From Lysobacterales bacterium (GTDB lineage: Bacteria > Pseudomonadota > Gammaproteobacteria > Xanthomonadales > Wenzhouxiangellaceae), in contig PBLG01000046.1 in assembly GCA_002722315.1 (NCBI GenBank), positions 62,001-126,000 of the forward strand: a stretch of DNA of 64,000 nt. Direction: 5' to 3'. Under the pieces are notes generated by a model that was given only the letters and a program-made list of their open reading frames with translations, was not told where the DNA came from and made no database searches. A program made the position numbers and the translations under genes. This document shows, in pieces, positions 7,933-62,120 of the stretch. How positions within the stretch are numbered: position 1 is the stretch's first letter; the number at the start of each line of letters is the position of its first letter.

Positions 7933-8847
7933 TCAATCCGGCAGCCGTTCGCGGGCCGCTTCCAGGCCTTGCGCATGCCGGGCGATATCGGCCCAGGGGT
8001 CTTCGCGCTGGCCGAGTCGCCGGAAGATGTTGCCGATGCGATATTTGCGCGGCGTCAGAGCGCTTTCGCCCACCTCGTTCCATTCCAGCGGCGTGGCGAT
8101 CGGGGCGCCCGGCCGCGCGCGCACCGCATACGGTGCGACCGAGGTCTGACCATAGGCGTTGCGGAGGTCGTCGAGAAAGACCCGATTCCCGCGCTTGGCC
8201 TTGCGTTGCTCCACGGTCATCAGGTCGGGATGCCGTTCGGCCAGGTTACGACAGACACGGTGACTGAACTCGCGTACTCCATCGAAGTTCGCCTCGCGGT
8301 CCAGCGGCACCACGACGTGCAGCCCGCGCGAACCGGTGGTCTGGACGAACGAGGTCAGGCCCAGTTCGTCGAGGAATTCCCGCAGGTGCCGGGCGGTCTG
8401 CCGAACCTTGTCGAAGTCGTCGTCCGACGGGTCCAGGTCGAAGATCATGCGGTCGGGGTGCTGGGGCCGGTCGATGCGGGAAAGCGCAAGATGCGGGGTG
8501 ATGCAGGCCTGGCCGGCCAGGTAGACCAGGGTCGCCGCGCTGTTGGCCACGACGTGCGTGACTTCGCCGTCCTTCTTGGGCAGCGTCGCGCGGTCGATCC
8601 AGTCGGGGAAGTAGTCCGAGACGTTTTTCTGGAAGAAACCGTCTCCGTCTATACCGTCCGGGTACCTGTGCATGCTCAGCGCGCGGTCGCGATAGTGTCG
8701 CAGCGCCACCTCGGCCACCTTGCGATAGTAGTCGGCCAGCTCGAACTTGGTGATGGCGTCATCGGGAAACAGCACTTTGTCGCTATGGCTGATCGCGACC
8801 TCGCGGCCGCCGACTTCGATCATGCGTTGTTGATCGCGTTCACTCAT
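7933..8847 (-). CDS. ligD: LigD polymerase (POL) domain as a separate gene
   Basis: A 304-residue archaeo-eukaryotic primase-type polymerase, normally the C-terminal domain of LigD. It fills or extends DNA ends during bacterial non-homologous end joining. The catalytic metal motif is D137-L-D139-P in MIFDLDPSDDDFDKV, followed by TTGSRGLHVVVPL, both hallmarks of LigD-POL. Its ATG overlaps the stop of the ligase gene by four bases (ATGA), so translation is coupled. It is the last of three genes that together equal one PE-LIG-POL LigD. Confidence 0.92.
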   Translation of the reverse strand: MSERDQQRMIEVGGREVAISHSDKVLFPDDAITKFELADYYRKVAEVALRHYRDRALSMHRYPDGIDGDGFFQKNVSDYFPDWIDRATLPKKDGEVTHVVANSAATLVYLAGQACITPHLALSRIDRPQHPDRMIFDLDPSDDDFDKVRQTARHLREFLDELGLTSFVQTTGSRGLHVVVPLDREANFDGVREFSHRVCRNLAERHPDLMTVEQRKAKRGNRVFLDDLRNAYGQTSVAPYAVRARPGAPIATPLEWNEVGESALTPRKYRIGNIFRRLGQREDPWADIARHAQGLEAARERLPD

Positions 8848-9869
8848 TCGGGTGTCTCTCGCTTGACGTCGCGGGGTTTCTTGTCCCGTCTAAGCCCGAG
8901 GAACCGGGGATGGCGAAGCTTGCCGTCGTTGGTCCATTCGGTGAACCCGAACTCGCCGACGAAGCGCGGCTCGACCCAGGTAACGCCCTTGCTGCCCGGC
9001 CCGTCGACGAACGGACACTCGTCGACGGCGTGTTCGTCGAGCCGGGCGCGGAATTCGACGAGAAATTCGTCGTCGTAGCCGGTCCCGACCTTGCCGGCGT
9101 AGCGCAGATCGTCTTCGCCACCGTTATCTTCGCGCCTGTCTTCGTAATACCCGACCAGCAGGGCGCCGAACCCCTTGCGCTCGCCTTCCGGTTCGGTGAA
9201 GCCCGCGATGACCAGTTCCTGGCCGTGGTCGCACTTGAACTTGAGCCAGTCGCTTGACCGGCTGTGGCGATAGCGCGAGTCGGCCCGCTTGGCGATGACG
9301 CCTTCCCAACCCTTGCTGCAGGCCTCCTCGAAGTAGGCCTCGCCGTCCTCATTTCTGTGGGGGGTGAAGTGAAGCGGCTTCTCGAACCCGATCAGCCGCC
9401 GAAGCAGTCGCTTGCGCGTTCTCAGCGGTAGTTCATCCAGATCGTAGCCGTCGACGTGCAGCATATCGAAGACGTAGAAATGAATTGCCACGCGCGACTT
9501 CCGGGCCTCGTCCGGGTCGGTGATCTTCATCCGCTGCTGCAGGCGCGAGAAACTGCTGACCCCGTTCTTGAATGCGACGACTTCGCCGTCGACGACGAAA
9601 TCCGTGCACCCCTGTTCGAGGCAGGCCTCGACCAGTTCCGGATAGGTGTCGTTGGCCCGTTTCCGGTTGCGCGTCAGCAGGCGGACGTCGTCGCCGCTGC
9701 GAAACAGCAGCAGCCGTTCGCCGTCGAGCTTGCGCTCGTAGATCCAGCCTGGATCGGAAAAGCGCTTTTCGGTCAGCGTAGCCAGCATGGGCGACATCCA
9801 GTCCGGGTGGCCGGATTTCTTCAGGGCGTCGCGCTCGTCCGCCGTCAGAGCCTCTTGCCAGCCGCTCAT
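8844..9869 (-). CDS. ligD: LigD ATP-dependent DNA ligase (LIG) domain as a separate gene
   Basis: A 341-residue ATP-dependent ligase. Motif I, which becomes adenylated, is K47-L-D-G50 in YERKLDGERLLL. Further motifs include DFVVDGEVVAF and EGVIAKRADSRYRHSRS, and the C-terminal OB-fold ends in WVEPRFVGEFGFTEWTNDG. It seals nicks during end joining. Both ends overlap neighbouring genes by four bases, so it is the middle gene of a tightly coupled PE-LIG-POL operon. There is no sign of a frameshift; each gene has its own ATG and stop. Confidence 0.93.
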   Translation of the reverse strand: MSGWQEALTADERDALKKSGHPDWMSPMLATLTEKRFSDPGWIYERKLDGERLLLFRSGDDVRLLTRNRKRANDTYPELVEACLEQGCTDFVVDGEVVAFKNGVSSFSRLQQRMKITDPDEARKSRVAIHFYVFDMLHVDGYDLDELPLRTRKRLLRRLIGFEKPLHFTPHRNEDGEAYFEEACSKGWEGVIAKRADSRYRHSRSSDWLKFKCDHGQELVIAGFTEPEGERKGFGALLVGYYEDRREDNGGEDDLRYAGKVGTGYDDEFLVEFRARLDEHAVDECPFVDGPGSKGVTWVEPRFVGEFGFTEWTNDGKLRHPRFLGLRRDKKPRDVKRETPE

Positions 9870-10462
9870 TCCTCTTCCTCGCCTTCATCATCGGCGATCT
9901 GTTTCATCGTGCGATCGCTCTTGACCGATTTTCGTTCGGTGGATACCGGATTGCGGCGCGCGTCGGCATGCTCGTCGTCCATCTTGATCATCAGCCAGCG
10001 CGCGTCGTCGCCGGAACCGGTGCGGTGCAGAGCGTACCCACCTTGCAGCTTTTCGCCGTGCAGGTCGACCAGAACGTGACCGGCCTTTATCGCCTTTTCG
10101 ATCGGCTGGATCTCGTCGTCTTTCTCGGTGATGTTTTCGTAGGAACCGCGATCCCAGATCATCACGGTACCGCCGCCGTACTCGTCTTCGGGAATGACCC
10201 CTTCGAAATCGGCGTAGGCCAGCGGGTGATCCTCGGTGGGAATTGCCAGGCGCTTCTCGCCGGGGTCGGTGGACGGCCCCTTCGGCACGGCCCATGACTT
10301 GAGGACCCCGTCGGCTTCGATCCGGAAGTCGTAGTGCAGGGTGGAGGCATCGTGCTTCTGGATCACGAACTGCGGTTGTTTCGAGGATTTACGGCCGGAC
10401 GAACCCCGGGGTTCGCTTGTCTTGTCGAAGTTTCGCCTGGAACTATAGTCCCTGGTCGACAT
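9866..10462 (-). CDS. ligD: LigD 3'-phosphoesterase (PE) domain as a separate gene
   Basis: A 198-residue protein matching the LigD PE domain, which trims 3'-phosphates and 3'-ribonucleotides at breaks. Conserved segments are FVIQKHDASTLHYDFRIE, LKSWAVPKGPS, EDHPLAYADFEGVIP and EYGGGTVMIWD, which hold the His/Asp/Glu metal ligands. The C-terminus is a run of acidic residues ending in EGEEEE. It is the first gene of the three-gene LigD operon; its stop overlaps the ligase ATG. No Ku gene is in the window. Confidence 0.92.
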   Translation of the reverse strand: MSTRDYSSRRNFDKTSEPRGSSGRKSSKQPQFVIQKHDASTLHYDFRIEADGVLKSWAVPKGPSTDPGEKRLAIPTEDHPLAYADFEGVIPEDEYGGGTVMIWDRGSYENITEKDDEIQPIEKAIKAGHVLVDLHGEKLQGGYALHRTGSGDDARWLMIKMDDEHADARRNPVSTERKSVKSDRTMKQIADDEGEEEE

Positions 10463-11576: not shown

Positions 11577-13001
11577 TTATCCGAACAACCCGTGCACGAA
11601 CCACCCGTCGCGCGGCTTGTATTCGCGGAATACCCACAGCCGGTTGCCGTGGCGGTCGTGGGCGGTCCAGTAGTCGCGTCGGCAGTCCTGGCCGTCCCAC
11701 CACCCGGCCTCGATGCGTTCCGGACCGTCGATCAGGCGCAGCTCGCCGGCGCGGCAGGGACGAGGCTCCGGCAACAGCCAGTTCGGCCTGGTCGGAGTCG
11801 CCGCGTCGGTGCTGGTCGTGCCCGGCGGTGTCCATTTCCAGGCTTTTTCCGGACGATGATCGGGGCACGGTGCGATGCTGCACAGGCCGTCCTCGCCGAT
11901 GCGCGCGACAAGCCGGTCGATCAGCGCCGGCCAGGCGTCGTTGATGTTGGTGCCGGTCCACAGGTCGGCCTGCGGCGGCCGCTGTTCGGTGGTGCTGTCG
12001 GCGCGCACGCGCAGCGATTCTATGGCCGAGATCAGGCGGATCGATTCCAGCTTCAGCCGCAGGATCTCCAACAGTCGGTCGCGCTGAAAGCCCGGTTGAC
12101 CGAGCCCGGCGGAGAATTCGATCTTCGGCCCCCGATCCTCCGGCAGCAACTCGATCTCGATTCCCGACAGGGCACGGTCGCGCACCCGGAGCCACTGATG
12201 CAGGTGCTCCAGCACCCGGTTGAGCGCAAAAAGAAGCGCTTCGCTGCGGATGGTCGGCACGGGCAGCTCGAGCACCTGGCAGAAGGTCTCCGGCGGCTGC
12301 CAGTAGACCAGCGGCGTCTGCTCGCGGCCGTGAATCTGGTCCAGGTAGCGGTTCAGCGCGCGGCCGAGCCGACGTTCGCGCTCGAAACGCGGCAGCGCCA
12401 GCACGTCGCGCACCGATTTCAGCCCCAGCCCGTCGAGTTTATGGAGTTCGGCCGGCGCCAGGGCGAGCCGGCGCAGCGGCCAGTCCGAAAGCATGCCGCG
12501 CAGCGTTTCCGCCTCGGTCACGTGCTGTCCGGTGCGCGCCAGCAGGCAGGCCGCGGTCGGCACCGGCGCCGTGCCCAGGCTTGCGTGCAGTCCCATGGCC
12601 GAGATTTCATCGTTCAGGGCGCACAGCATCGTGTCCAGGTCGCCGTGCAGCCGGCGACTGCCGCCGGTTTCCAGCACCACGCCGTCTCCGGTAATCGCCA
12701 CCTGGTGGCTGTAACGGTAGGCGACCAGTGCCAGTTCCTCCAGCAGCCGGGCCTCGGCCTTGCGGTCGCGCGCCGGGCTCTCGAGGTCGGGTGCGATCGC
12801 CAGCGCATCGGCCAGCGCCTGGCCGGGGTGAACGCCCCGGCTGCGCGCGGCGCGGTTGATCTCGATGATCCGCACGCGGCCGCTGACCGTGTCGTGCAGC
12901 GCCAACGGGGTTGCCGGCGTCATGCCCGGCAGCAGGCGCAGCACGGCCTGCAGGGCGCCCTGGGGGCACACGATGCCGGTCCATAGCGTGTTCGCCGGCA
13001 T
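11577..13001 (-). CDS. imuB: ImuB, inactive Y-family polymerase-like translesion protein
   Basis: A 474-residue Y-family (DinB/UmuC-like) protein beginning MPANTLWTGIV. ImuB lacks polymerase activity and bridges ImuA, the beta clamp and DnaE2 in SOS mutagenesis. Family features are the EINRAARSRGVHPGQALADA segment, the helix-hairpin-helix region LHKLDGLGLKSVRDVLALP and a long C-terminal tail ending in WFVHGLFG. I placed the start at 13001, where ATG overlaps the imuA stop (TAATG); a longer open frame upstream is antisense noise over imuA. The usual third gene, dnaE2/imuC, does not follow. Confidence 0.9.
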   Translation of the reverse strand: MPANTLWTGIVCPQGALQAVLRLLPGMTPATPLALHDTVSGRVRIIEINRAARSRGVHPGQALADALAIAPDLESPARDRKAEARLLEELALVAYRYSHQVAITGDGVVLETGGSRRLHGDLDTMLCALNDEISAMGLHASLGTAPVPTAACLLARTGQHVTEAETLRGMLSDWPLRRLALAPAELHKLDGLGLKSVRDVLALPRFERERRLGRALNRYLDQIHGREQTPLVYWQPPETFCQVLELPVPTIRSEALLFALNRVLEHLHQWLRVRDRALSGIEIELLPEDRGPKIEFSAGLGQPGFQRDRLLEILRLKLESIRLISAIESLRVRADSTTEQRPPQADLWTGTNINDAWPALIDRLVARIGEDGLCSIAPCPDHRPEKAWKWTPPGTTSTDAATPTRPNWLLPEPRPCRAGELRLIDGPERIEAGWWDGQDCRRDYWTAHDRHGNRLWVFREYKPRDGWFVHGLFG

Positions 13002-13663
13002 TATCTTCCGGGCACCAGCGGCACGACGTTGTCGGCGTGCAGCCGGATCGTGCCGGTGGTCTCGCCGCCCCGGCTGCGCAGAATCTCGATATGGCCGCCG
13101 CAGCGAATCGCCAGCCGCAGACTGGCCAGCGAGGGCGGTGGCGTGCTGCCCGGGGCGTAGCAGAGAAATACCGGCGCATCGCCGTTTTCGGCCGCCAACT
13201 GGAGCCGGCGCACCGCGCGATCGCTGACGGCGCTGCCGTTGCCGGCATCGGGCCAGACCGCGATCGCACCGCACAGGCCGCTTTTCAGGCACTGTTCGGC
13301 AGCCCAGAACGCATGTTTCTGCTCGCGCACGATCAGCAGACGGGTCAGGTCCAGGCCGGCCCGGGCCAGGCTCTGGGGGCAGGGCACCATCGGCGGCGCG
13401 ATGAACAATACCGGCCGTTCGCGCCGGGTGAGTTCGGCCAGGCAGGGCAGCAGCAGGTCGAGTTCGCCGACGCCGATTCGCTCCGGCAGCAGTTCCACCA
13501 GCTTGCCGCGGGGCCAGCCGCCATCGGGCAACCGCCGGTCCAGCGCGGCCCGACCGGTGGCCAGCGCATTGCCAGGCCGCCGTCGGCGTCCGCGCCACAG
13601 GTCGTTGCGTTCGGCGAGCAGCTGTTCGAGCGAATCGGTGAGGTTCATCGGGGCGGTTTCCAT
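13001..13663 (-). CDS. imuA: ImuA, RecA-like SOS mutagenesis protein
   Basis: A 220-residue protein of the ImuA (RecA/SulA-like) family that works with ImuB and DnaE2 in translesion synthesis. It shows the conserved ATGRAALDRRLPDGGWPRGKLVE start of the RecA-like core, though without a clear Walker A, and the LLIVREQKHAFWAAEQCLKSG helix. A second ATG 15 bases downstream is a possible alternative start. A near-consensus LexA box lies directly upstream, so the imuAB pair is damage-inducible. Confidence 0.88.
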   Translation of the reverse strand: METAPMNLTDSLEQLLAERNDLWRGRRRRPGNALATGRAALDRRLPDGGWPRGKLVELLPERIGVGELDLLLPCLAELTRRERPVLFIAPPMVPCPQSLARAGLDLTRLLIVREQKHAFWAAEQCLKSGLCGAIAVWPDAGNGSAVSDRAVRRLQLAAENGDAPVFLCYAPGSTPPPSLASLRLAIRCGGHIEILRSRGGETTGTIRLHADNVVPLVPGR

Positions 13664-14428: not shown

Positions 14429-14539
14429 GGTGGCCCCCGACCGCCCGATCCCGTCGCCCACGCTCCCGCTGCCGCTGCTCCCTTCCGGGCCTGACGGGGT
14501 TTACGGGTTAGTGGCGCGGGGAGACCGACGAGGACCACC
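14429..14539 (-). ncRNA. ffs: Signal recognition particle RNA (4.5S type)
   Basis: The minus strand carries the invariant apical SRP motif GTCAGGCCCGGAAGGGAGCA, in which the GGAA tetraloop and asymmetric internal loop bind Ffh. The ends pair: GGTGGTCCTC at the 5' end with GGGGGCCACC at the 3' end, giving a single long hairpin of 111 nt, the size of the E. coli 4.5S RNA. Together with Ffh it targets nascent membrane proteins to FtsY. An extended -10 promoter lies at the right distance and a T-tract follows the 3' end. Confidence 0.93.
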
Positions 14540-14654: not shown

Positions 14655-14710
14655 TACCGGCCTGCAAGCGCGCGAAGGGCCAGCGACCGCAGGTCGCGCA
14701 GTACTCCCTC
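14655..14710 (+). repeat. Half copy of the tRNA-insert element followed by a tRNA-Ser 3'-end remnant
   Basis: The stretch CGAAGGGCCAGCGACCGCAG and the following GTCGCGCAGTA match the 3' half of the insert unit at 14930-15011. It runs into CTCCCTCTCTCCC, which resembles the T-arm and acceptor end of the neighbouring tRNA-Ser. It looks like the remains of another interrupted tRNA-Ser copy. Confidence 0.55.
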
Positions 14711-14784
14711 TCTCCCGTTGCGCAGCAACGCCTGGTCGAGAGCGTGAGACAATAAGTTTACGGAGAGATGGCCGAGTGGCTGAC

Positions 14785-14874
14785 CCGAGCAACGCGAGGA
14801 CGATGTGGAAGCCGCGCAGCGGCTGAAGCAACCCGGAGCGAAGCGAAGGGCAAGCGCCGGAACGGCGCGCAGTC
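14785..14874 (+). repeat. Hairpin insert element in the D-loop of tRNA-Ser(GCU)
   Basis: A 90-base member of the CCGAGC...GCAGTC family. It contains the hairpins GCCGC-GCA-GCGGC and GCGCC-GGAAC-GGCGC; the first hairpin of the family is degenerate here. It follows GGCTGAC and precedes AACGCG. Confidence 0.85.
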
Positions 14875-14929
14875 AACGCGCTCCCCTGCTAAGGGAGTAT
14901 GGGGTCAAAAGCCCCATCGAGGGTTCGAA

Positions 14930-15011
14930 CCGAGCGCAGCGAGCTCACGAGCCCAGGCGCCGCAGGCGACTGGCGAGCCCGAAGGGCCAGCGACCGCAGG
15001 TCGCGCAGTAA
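14930..15011 (+). repeat. First of two tandem hairpin inserts in the T-loop of tRNA-Ser(GCU)
   Basis: A divergent unit that begins CCGAGCGCAGCGAGCT directly after GGTTCGAA and ends GCGCAGTAA. Its 3' hairpin is GCGACC-GCA-GGTCGC, a changed but still fully paired version of the family stem. Confidence 0.75.
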
Positions 15012-15100
15012 CCGAGCTGCGCGAGCTCGATGTGGAGGCCGCGAAGCGGCTGGAACAACCCGGAGCGGTAGCGGAGGGCAAGCGCCGAAGGTGCGCAGTC
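15012..15100 (+). repeat. Second tandem hairpin insert in the T-loop of tRNA-Ser(GCU)
   Basis: An 89-base unit that is typical of the family: CGAGC/GCTCG stem, GCCGC-GAA-GCGGC stem, then CCCGGAGCGGTAGCGGAGGG, then GCGCC-GAA-GGTGC and the terminal GCAGTC. The tRNA resumes with CATCCCTC. Confidence 0.85.
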
Positions 15101-15130
15101 CATCCCTCTCTCTCCGCCAGATACGACAAG

Positions 15131-15151
15131 CCCCGCGAAAGCGGGGTTTTT
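15131..15151 (+). terminator. Rho-independent terminator of tRNA-Ser(GCU)
   Basis: CCCCGC, GAAA loop, GCGGGG and five T residues, 11 bases after the encoded CCA. Confidence 0.92.
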
Positions 15152-61699: not shown

Positions 61700-61793
<94 letters not shown>

Positions 61794-61860
61794 GGAACTG
61801 TCAAATTGTAATCCGATCTTTGATCGGGCGGCCCTTTGCGGGCCGCGAGAGGGAGGGATT

Positions 61861-61950
61861 GACTGCGCACCTTCGGTGCTTGCCCTCCGCTACCGCTGCG
61901 GGTTGTTCCGGCCGCTGCGCGGCCTCCACATCGAGCTCGCTTACGCTCGG
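61861..61950 (-). repeat. Hairpin insert element in the T-loop of the tRNA-Ser(CGA) copy
   Basis: On the minus strand it starts CCGAGCGTAAGCGAGCTCG after GGTTCGAA and ends GTGCGCAGTC; a two-base AA is present on both sides (possible target duplication). Its last hairpin, GCACC-GAA-GGTGC, differs from the relatives by compensatory changes. Confidence 0.87.
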
Positions 61951-62004
61951 TTCGAACCCTCGAAGGGGCGTAAACCCCTTAACGGTTTTCGAGACCGCCG
62001 CATT

Positions 62005-62078
62005 GACTGCGCGCCGTGTCGGCGCTTGCCCTGCGCTTCGCTCCGGGTAGCTTCGCATCGAGCTCGTCTTCGGCTCGG
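62005..62078 (-). repeat. Hairpin insert element in the D-loop of the tRNA-Ser(CGA) copy
   Basis: A 74-base short version lacking most of the second hairpin. On the minus strand it starts CCGAGCCGAAGACGAGCTCG after GTGGTCGAA and ends GGCGCGCAGTC followed by AATGCGG. The 3' hairpin is GCGCC-GACAC-GGCGC. Confidence 0.87.
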
Positions 62079-62120
62079 TTCGACCACTCTGCCACCTCTC
62101 CAAAACTGGTCTAGTTGCGT

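Follow-up and report, generated by a model that had tools for sequence, protein, structure and literature searches.

RtT-like repeat units interrupt a copy of tRNA-Ser(GCU) in the D- and T-loops in a member of the Wenzhouxiangellaceae

Can a bacterial tRNA gene that is interrupted in two of its loops still provide the cell with a working tRNA? This question is raised by a tRNA-Ser(GCU) locus of a Lysobacterales bacterium located in the window, by which we mean the whole 64,000-nucleotide stretch of DNA that was analyzed. Direct reading of positions 14762 to 15119 (plus strand) revealed 93 nt of tRNA-Ser(GCU) broken into pieces of 22, 54, and 17 nt (Table 1). An earlier model-made reading of the letters (here, the sequence-only reading) had described a gene interrupted in both the D-loop and the T-loop, and all of the parts that it named are present. 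Two inserts do occupy these loops, with measured sizes of 92 nt in the D-loop and 173 nt in the T-loop in place of the 90 and 171 bases reported, and the T-loop insert is composed of two units arranged head to tail. The promoter-like GACAAT box is located ~12 bases 5' of the gene, and the same upstream layout is found at the tRNA-Ser(GCU) gene of G005, a genome of the same genus. The open-access literature searched afforded no interrupted bacterial tRNA genes of this kind.

Table 1. Positions of the two split tRNA-Ser copies, their inserts, and associated features in the window
Feature	Position	Length	Strand	Basis or remark
Array-copy remnant preceding the GCU gene: insert unit (second half) plus truncated tRNA-Ser 3' half	14670-14718		+	
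Short leader of the split gene, with GACAAT as likely -10 box	14745-14761		+	Direct reading
tRNA-Ser(GCU) exon 1: 5' strand of the acceptor stem, beginning of the D-arm	14762-14783	22 nt	+	Matches intact relatives through GGCTGA
D-loop insert, one long-type RtT-like unit	14784-14875	92 nt	+	Model R1, 75.8 bits
Exon 2: 3' strand of the D-stem, anticodon (GCU) and variable arms, T-arm as far as TTCGAA	14876-14929	54 nt	+	
T-loop insert unit 1, short type	14930-15011		+	Model R1, 59.8 bits
Long-type unit 2 of the T-loop insert, placed head to tail after unit 1	15012-15102		+	Model R1, 78.0 bits
Exon 3: T-stem and acceptor 3' strand, encoded CCA	15103-15119	17 nt	+	Direct reading
Intrinsic terminator CCCCGC-GAAA-GCGGGG and T run	15128-15151		+	Direct reading
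Intact tRNA-Ser(CGA), 50 bp downstream of the split CGA copy	61702-61793		-	ARAGORN, Rfam
Second split tRNA-Ser copy, anticodon CGA, acceptor 3' end truncated, without CCA	61843-62101		-	Genome search with the GCU locus
T-loop insert of the split CGA copy	61859-61950		-	Model R1
D-loop insert of the split CGA copy	62003-62078		-	Model R1

Comparison with relatives showed that the summed exon length is the length assigned by ARAGORN to intact tRNA-Ser(GCU) genes and that the exons are identical to the intact gene of G005 (L080) at 91 of 93 bases. This match is far beyond chance, thereby ruling out a fortuitous likeness to tRNA. The two differences comprise one base of the variable arm and one base of the D-stem 3' strand, which reads CGC instead of GGC. 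The acceptor, anticodon, variable, and T arms are intact. Because of the inserts, the split gene was called neither by ARAGORN nor by the Rfam tRNA model. Following joining of the flanks, ARAGORN accepted the resulting molecule, which was short of one T-loop A, as a tRNA-Ser(gct) with just two D-stem pairs. The D-stem mismatch C12-C23 remains after joining and is shared with a truncated pseudo-copy present in G015.

The inserts are members of a repeat family, which the sequence-only reading had missed together with the second split tRNA-Ser and the array-copy remnant present in the same window. The units of this family are structured repeats of about 70 to 100 nt that exist as long and short types. 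They have constant ends (CCGAG...GCAGT(C)AA) and are located between (T)CGA or (T)CGAA and the following tRNA base, mostly in T-loops and less often in D-loops. R1, a model derived from 30 insert units, detected 14 units in the host genome at E values of ≤0.001, beside tRNA genes, and had matches in 13 of the 25 genomes searched, including 2 in which the matches were weak and judged false. These two matches, L113 and L114 (27 to 28 bits), from other families of the order, were rejected since they displayed no unit anatomy and no nearby tRNA. Wherever flanks were readable, units at contig ends being left out of this judgment, a tRNA gene specific for Ser, Gln, Glu, Thr, or Arg lay no farther than a few hundred bases away, and no confident copy was found away from tRNAs. 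Wenzhouxiangellaceae relatives, complete genomes among them, contain many units, and a pattern scan of named genomes located the family in Wenzhouxiangella and its relatives. Pattern matches in Vreelandella utahensis (L219) and DS3.bin64 (L236) were attributed to chance, as they had a protein-coding appearance with neither a unit nor an adjacent tRNA. Rfam microRNA and plastid matches obtained in low-threshold scans were also discarded, since they were below the cut-off and mostly lay over tRNAs or long hairpins.

A hand-drawn structure of 19 pairs was 98% paired in 12 long-type units, a percentage that is flattered by the use of the same sequences for drawing the structure, so that the evidential weight is carried by the two-sided changes. 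These were observed at 7 pairs, including 5 in the six-pair helix 2. The covariation score was reached by none of 500 shuffles, and pairing dropped to 28 to 49% in slid controls. RNAalifold, applied to an alignment of mixed types, recovered the last hairpin alone. On account of the compensatory changes, the insert unit is probably under selection to fold, either as RNA or as single-stranded DNA.

To our knowledge, neither an origin nor a function has been settled since 1991 for the RtT repeats at the tyrT locus of E. coli. RtT RNA and the rttR repeats of E. coli tyrT-tyrV (RF00391) were described by Bosl and Kersten (1991, as cited in PMC2965389 and PMC4986893). RtT is described as an RNA freed from tRNA operons, for which a role in the stringent response has been proposed, and in a Pasteurellaceae genome it adjoins the tRNAs for Asn and Lys (PMC4986893, PMC2965389). 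The Salmonella rtT is a 175-bp VNTR of variable copy number (PMC2658671). Using the RtT model, we obtained 17.1 bits for the GCU locus and at best 28.4 bits (E value of 0.003) in the host genome, far under the Rfam gathering cut-off of 45 bits that defines membership and compared with 134 to 138 bits for the E. coli repeats themselves. Reciprocally, R1 scored about 18 bits on the E. coli repeats (E value of about 0.002). The placement is the same in both cases. At 14924-15119, the inserted units follow TTCGA of the T-loop and precede the tRNA 3' half with CCA, and the order in E. coli K-12 tyrT-tyrV is TTCGA, insert, ATCC, tRNA-Tyr 3' half, and CCA, the rttR insert reading CTCGAGCGCCAGCGAG...CCCGAAGGGC...GAGTA. 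E. coli harbors three rttR copies after tyrV and a fourth in the tyrT-tyrV interval, and an inverted 3'-half copy precedes each of them. The 3'-half units of the host genome and of its relatives have this same order, inverted acceptor/T-stem copy included, whereas the 5' half of the split GCU gene is that of a normal tRNA. RtT and the units also have in common a wealth of hairpins, the CGAGCG..GCGAG and CCCGAAGGGC motifs, and tandem copies adjoining tRNA genes. Apart from their scores, the units differ from RtT by the existence of long and short types, by the identity of the neighboring tRNAs (Ser, Gln, Glu, Thr, and Arg), and by the interruption of whole tRNA copies, in D-loops too, upstream of an intact gene. 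The weak, sub-cut-off, but reciprocal scores and the shared anatomy suggest kinship between the units and RtT.

Other known systems are more distant. Group I introns of bacterial tRNA genes are self-splicing, several hundred nucleotides long, and located in the anticodon arm. Although they likewise are structured inserts within tRNA genes, the units differ by their D- and T-loop positions, by the insert sizes given above, and by the lack of a match to any Rfam intron family, so that group I and other known introns were rejected, in agreement with the sequence-only reading. The analogy that it drew with Rickettsia palindromic elements, which are short structured repeats inside genes, proved to be the wrong comparison: judged by description only, the units differ from these elements in being tied to tRNA loops and RtT-like, and a close parallel is instead provided by the RtT repeats found in tRNA operons. 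The proteobacterial sRNA sX4 (RF02223) resembles the arrays described here in that a tRNA-Ser is succeeded by a terminator and by the tRNA 3' end in inverted copy. The match of the sX4 model in the host genome is weak (55.5 bits versus a cut-off of 70), and the sequence matched is that of an intact tRNA-Ser lacking an insert. An inverted tRNA 3'-half copy is found past the terminator of tRNA-Arg(ACG) (L098 / G000:C46), giving a long hairpin that is capped by the terminator, and this layout also occurs at other tRNAs of those genomes.

Split tRNA-Ser copies recur in the window and in relatives. The CGA copy carries inserts in both loops and adjoins an intact gene (Table 1). In the remnant upstream of the GCU gene, the insert portion (14670-14703) is 97% like 14977-15010, and unit 1 of the T-loop insert (14930-15011) is 90% identical to a unit adjoining tRNA-Ser(UGA) on contig C39 of the host genome. 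Among the loci fetched from relatives, split tRNA-Ser copies have GCU, CGA, UGA, and GGA anticodons and are inserted in the T-loop, the D-loop, or both. The typical split copy is located upstream of an intact gene, lacks CCA, and ends with a GCGG..CCGC hairpin; the usual array consists of split upstream copies, one intact tRNA with its terminator, and downstream 3'-half units made of an insert, CCA, and a terminator. In G018, the T-loop of a Ser(GCU) copy is interrupted by the same two-unit insert, and an intact copy follows. In the complete genome G015, the truncated Ser(GCU) pseudo-copy lies upstream of an intact one and has the D-loop insert, junctions, and flanking CGCGC found here. The complete genome G017 (L170) harbors tandem split Ser(GCU)-type copies with an altered anticodon arm (CTCCCTTGGCTCAAGGGAG), and the adjacent intact Ser(GCU) is normal. 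Intact partners of split tRNA-Ser copies were seen in the complete genomes G015, G017, and G022, and no tRNA existing in split form alone was seen in complete relatives.

The anticodon arm of the split gene is the single Ser(GCU) arm found in the host assembly. AGC and AGT represent 54 of the 173 Ser codons in seven ORFs of the window, and some working GCU tRNA gene must therefore exist. The sequence-only reading had proposed a search for an uninterrupted tRNA-Ser(GCU), which returned none in the assembly; this result is uninformative because the assembly is 85% complete and devoid of tRNAs for Asp, His, Tyr, and Ile. G001 is 99% complete by markers, yet it has zero Ser(GCU) arms and its units lie at contig ends. 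Units are also found at contig ends in G004, G005, G006, G010, and G014, and a contig of the last breaks within the GCU array.

We consider it likely that the GCU locus is an array copy that is dead as a tRNA and whose intact neighbor was lost through recombination or assembly collapse. According to this model, a tRNA-Ser array copy would have been invaded by RtT-like units, which would build tandem arrays around tRNA genes through duplication and recombination. If the T-loop insert of the split copy recombined with the insert of a unit farther downstream, the intact copy would be removed, and one gene would be left with both inserts, CCA, and a terminator and with no 3'-half unit behind, as is observed. 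The event may have taken place in the cell, or an equivalent path error may have occurred during assembly. The split copy would then yield no working tRNA-Ser(GCU), and the intact gene would be located in unassembled DNA. Support for an array copy comes from the intact genes that accompany the second split copy of the window, the split copies of complete relatives, and the Ser(GCU) copies of G018 and G015 that share the inserts. It also comes from the anatomy and reciprocal scores that link the units to the E. coli rttR repeats, from the fold kept by compensatory changes, and from the lack of four tRNA kinds in the assembly together with the position of units at contig ends in relatives. Against a dead copy, the promoter, CCA, and terminator are marks of the last, functional copy of an array, the arms are intact, and codon usage demands a GCU tRNA, of which no other was seen in the assembly. 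A long-dead copy should also show more decay, unless it is recent, homogenized, or chimeric. The dead gene and the assembly error entertained by the sequence-only reading both have a place in this explanation, although the failure to see an intact gene does not discriminate between its options.

One sub-case of the array-copy explanation is a pure assembly chimera, in which a shared insert led to the fusion of a split copy with a 3'-half unit located downstream, and no such molecule exists. This is a serious possibility that falls somewhat short of probable. The contigs of many related assemblies break at units, the GCU gene of the window is not followed by a 3'-half unit as it is in several relatives, and the upstream copy is likewise cut short (14670-14718). 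However, identity between units is often just about 80 to 92%, which assemblers can separate, and the CGA array of the window was resolved into split and intact copies.

The origin of the units is a distinct issue, so that their description as miniature mobile elements with fixed ends, targeted to the (T)CGA of tRNA loops by a transposase and having struck the GCU gene three times, is compatible with an array copy. We regard this origin as rather doubtful. The constant ends, the constant insertion point in the T- and D-loops of different tRNAs, the head-to-tail pairs of long and short units in either order, and the similar units adjoining different tRNAs of one genome speak for it. The fixed ends and fixed target are also those expected for non-autonomous elements of the Y1 type (IS200/IS605, REP), but Y1 transposases were not found in the unit-bearing genomes G001, G006, and G010, and they were accordingly rejected as partners. 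In addition, the units have no terminal inverted repeats and no clear target duplications, no confident copy was located off tRNAs, and recombination at the shared TCGAA could also shift units between loops. The fixed ends, the fixed point in two loops, and the tandem pairs in either order suggest site-specific insertion, and the exclusive tRNA linkage, the lack of a Y1 transposase in several unit-bearing genomes, and the TCGAA common to D- and T-loops fit local recombination equally well. Dada transposons of fish are specific for tRNA and other small RNA genes (PMC8869645), a target specificity akin to that of a mobile element of this sort, although these are eukaryotic DNA transposons for which kinship is not expected.

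The sequence-only reading had favored removal of the inserts from the RNA or their tolerance, and the evidence supports neither. In the case of removal, the split gene would be a working tRNA-Ser(GCU) whose inserts are cut out and whose pieces are joined, i.e., a new kind of bacterial tRNA intron, which we find very improbable. The sole Ser(GCU) arm of the assembly, the normal exon sum, the presence of a promoter, CCA, and terminator, and the acceptance of the joined flanks by ARAGORN are in keeping with splicing. However, the C12-C23 mismatch persists in the joined flanks, relatives having split copies keep an intact gene, the assembly lacks tRNAs for four amino acids, and the anticodon arms of the G017 split copies are altered to an extent that is unbearable for working tRNAs. 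Splicing by proteins is expected to involve an RtcB-type ligase, and RtcB was not found in the 11 insert-bearing genomes examined (the host, G000, as well as G001-G006, G010, G011, G014, and G015), the same search detecting it in E. coli and in six other genomes of the set. There is accordingly very little to commend the idea that the locus is the sole tRNA-Ser(GCU) gene of the cell, with both structured inserts removed from the transcript by an RtcB-independent route; if this were true, the RtT-like units would be the first bacterial tRNA inserts spliced from D- and T-loops. Least plausible is a cloverleaf core that folds with two long loop extensions and works without excision: pairing of the acceptor, anticodon, and T stems is still feasible despite the inserts and each insert can fold alone, but the contacts of the D-loop/T-loop elbow would need to survive insertions of 92 and 173 nt, the D-stem is damaged, and isoacceptors existing solely in split form were not seen in complete relatives.

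The novelty of these observations is the interruption of whole tRNA copies by RtT-like units in either of two loops, which recurs across the Wenzhouxiangellaceae. Since the units adjoin many tRNAs, occupy fixed loop positions, and have kept their fold, they offer a comparative system for RtT-like repeats in which their origin (mobile element, recombination, or selected RNA) and their role can be tested. The repeat family is worth studying in its own right, the choice between insertion and recombination being the part most worth pursuing. Such arrays also call for caution, as assemblies are interrupted at them and, in metagenome-assembled genomes, essential tRNA genes become hidden or corrupted.

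Several other features of the window were recorded. The gene of a bacterial small SRP RNA (14435-14530, minus strand; Rfam) is located directly upstream of the split tRNA in the opposite orientation, and an SRP-like sequence is found downstream of the Ser(GCU) gene of a relative (G012). The segment 41753-41834 (minus strand) matches the Xanthomonas sRNA sX9 with 45.1 bits, for a gathering score of 44. Two ORFs at 11577-13663 (minus strand) resemble, by eye, an ImuA/ImuB-type mutagenesis pair (SulA/RecA-like and Y-family polymerase-like), and ORFs at 8844-10462 (minus strand) resemble, by eye, an ATP-dependent DNA ligase and a LigD-type 3'-phosphoesterase domain.
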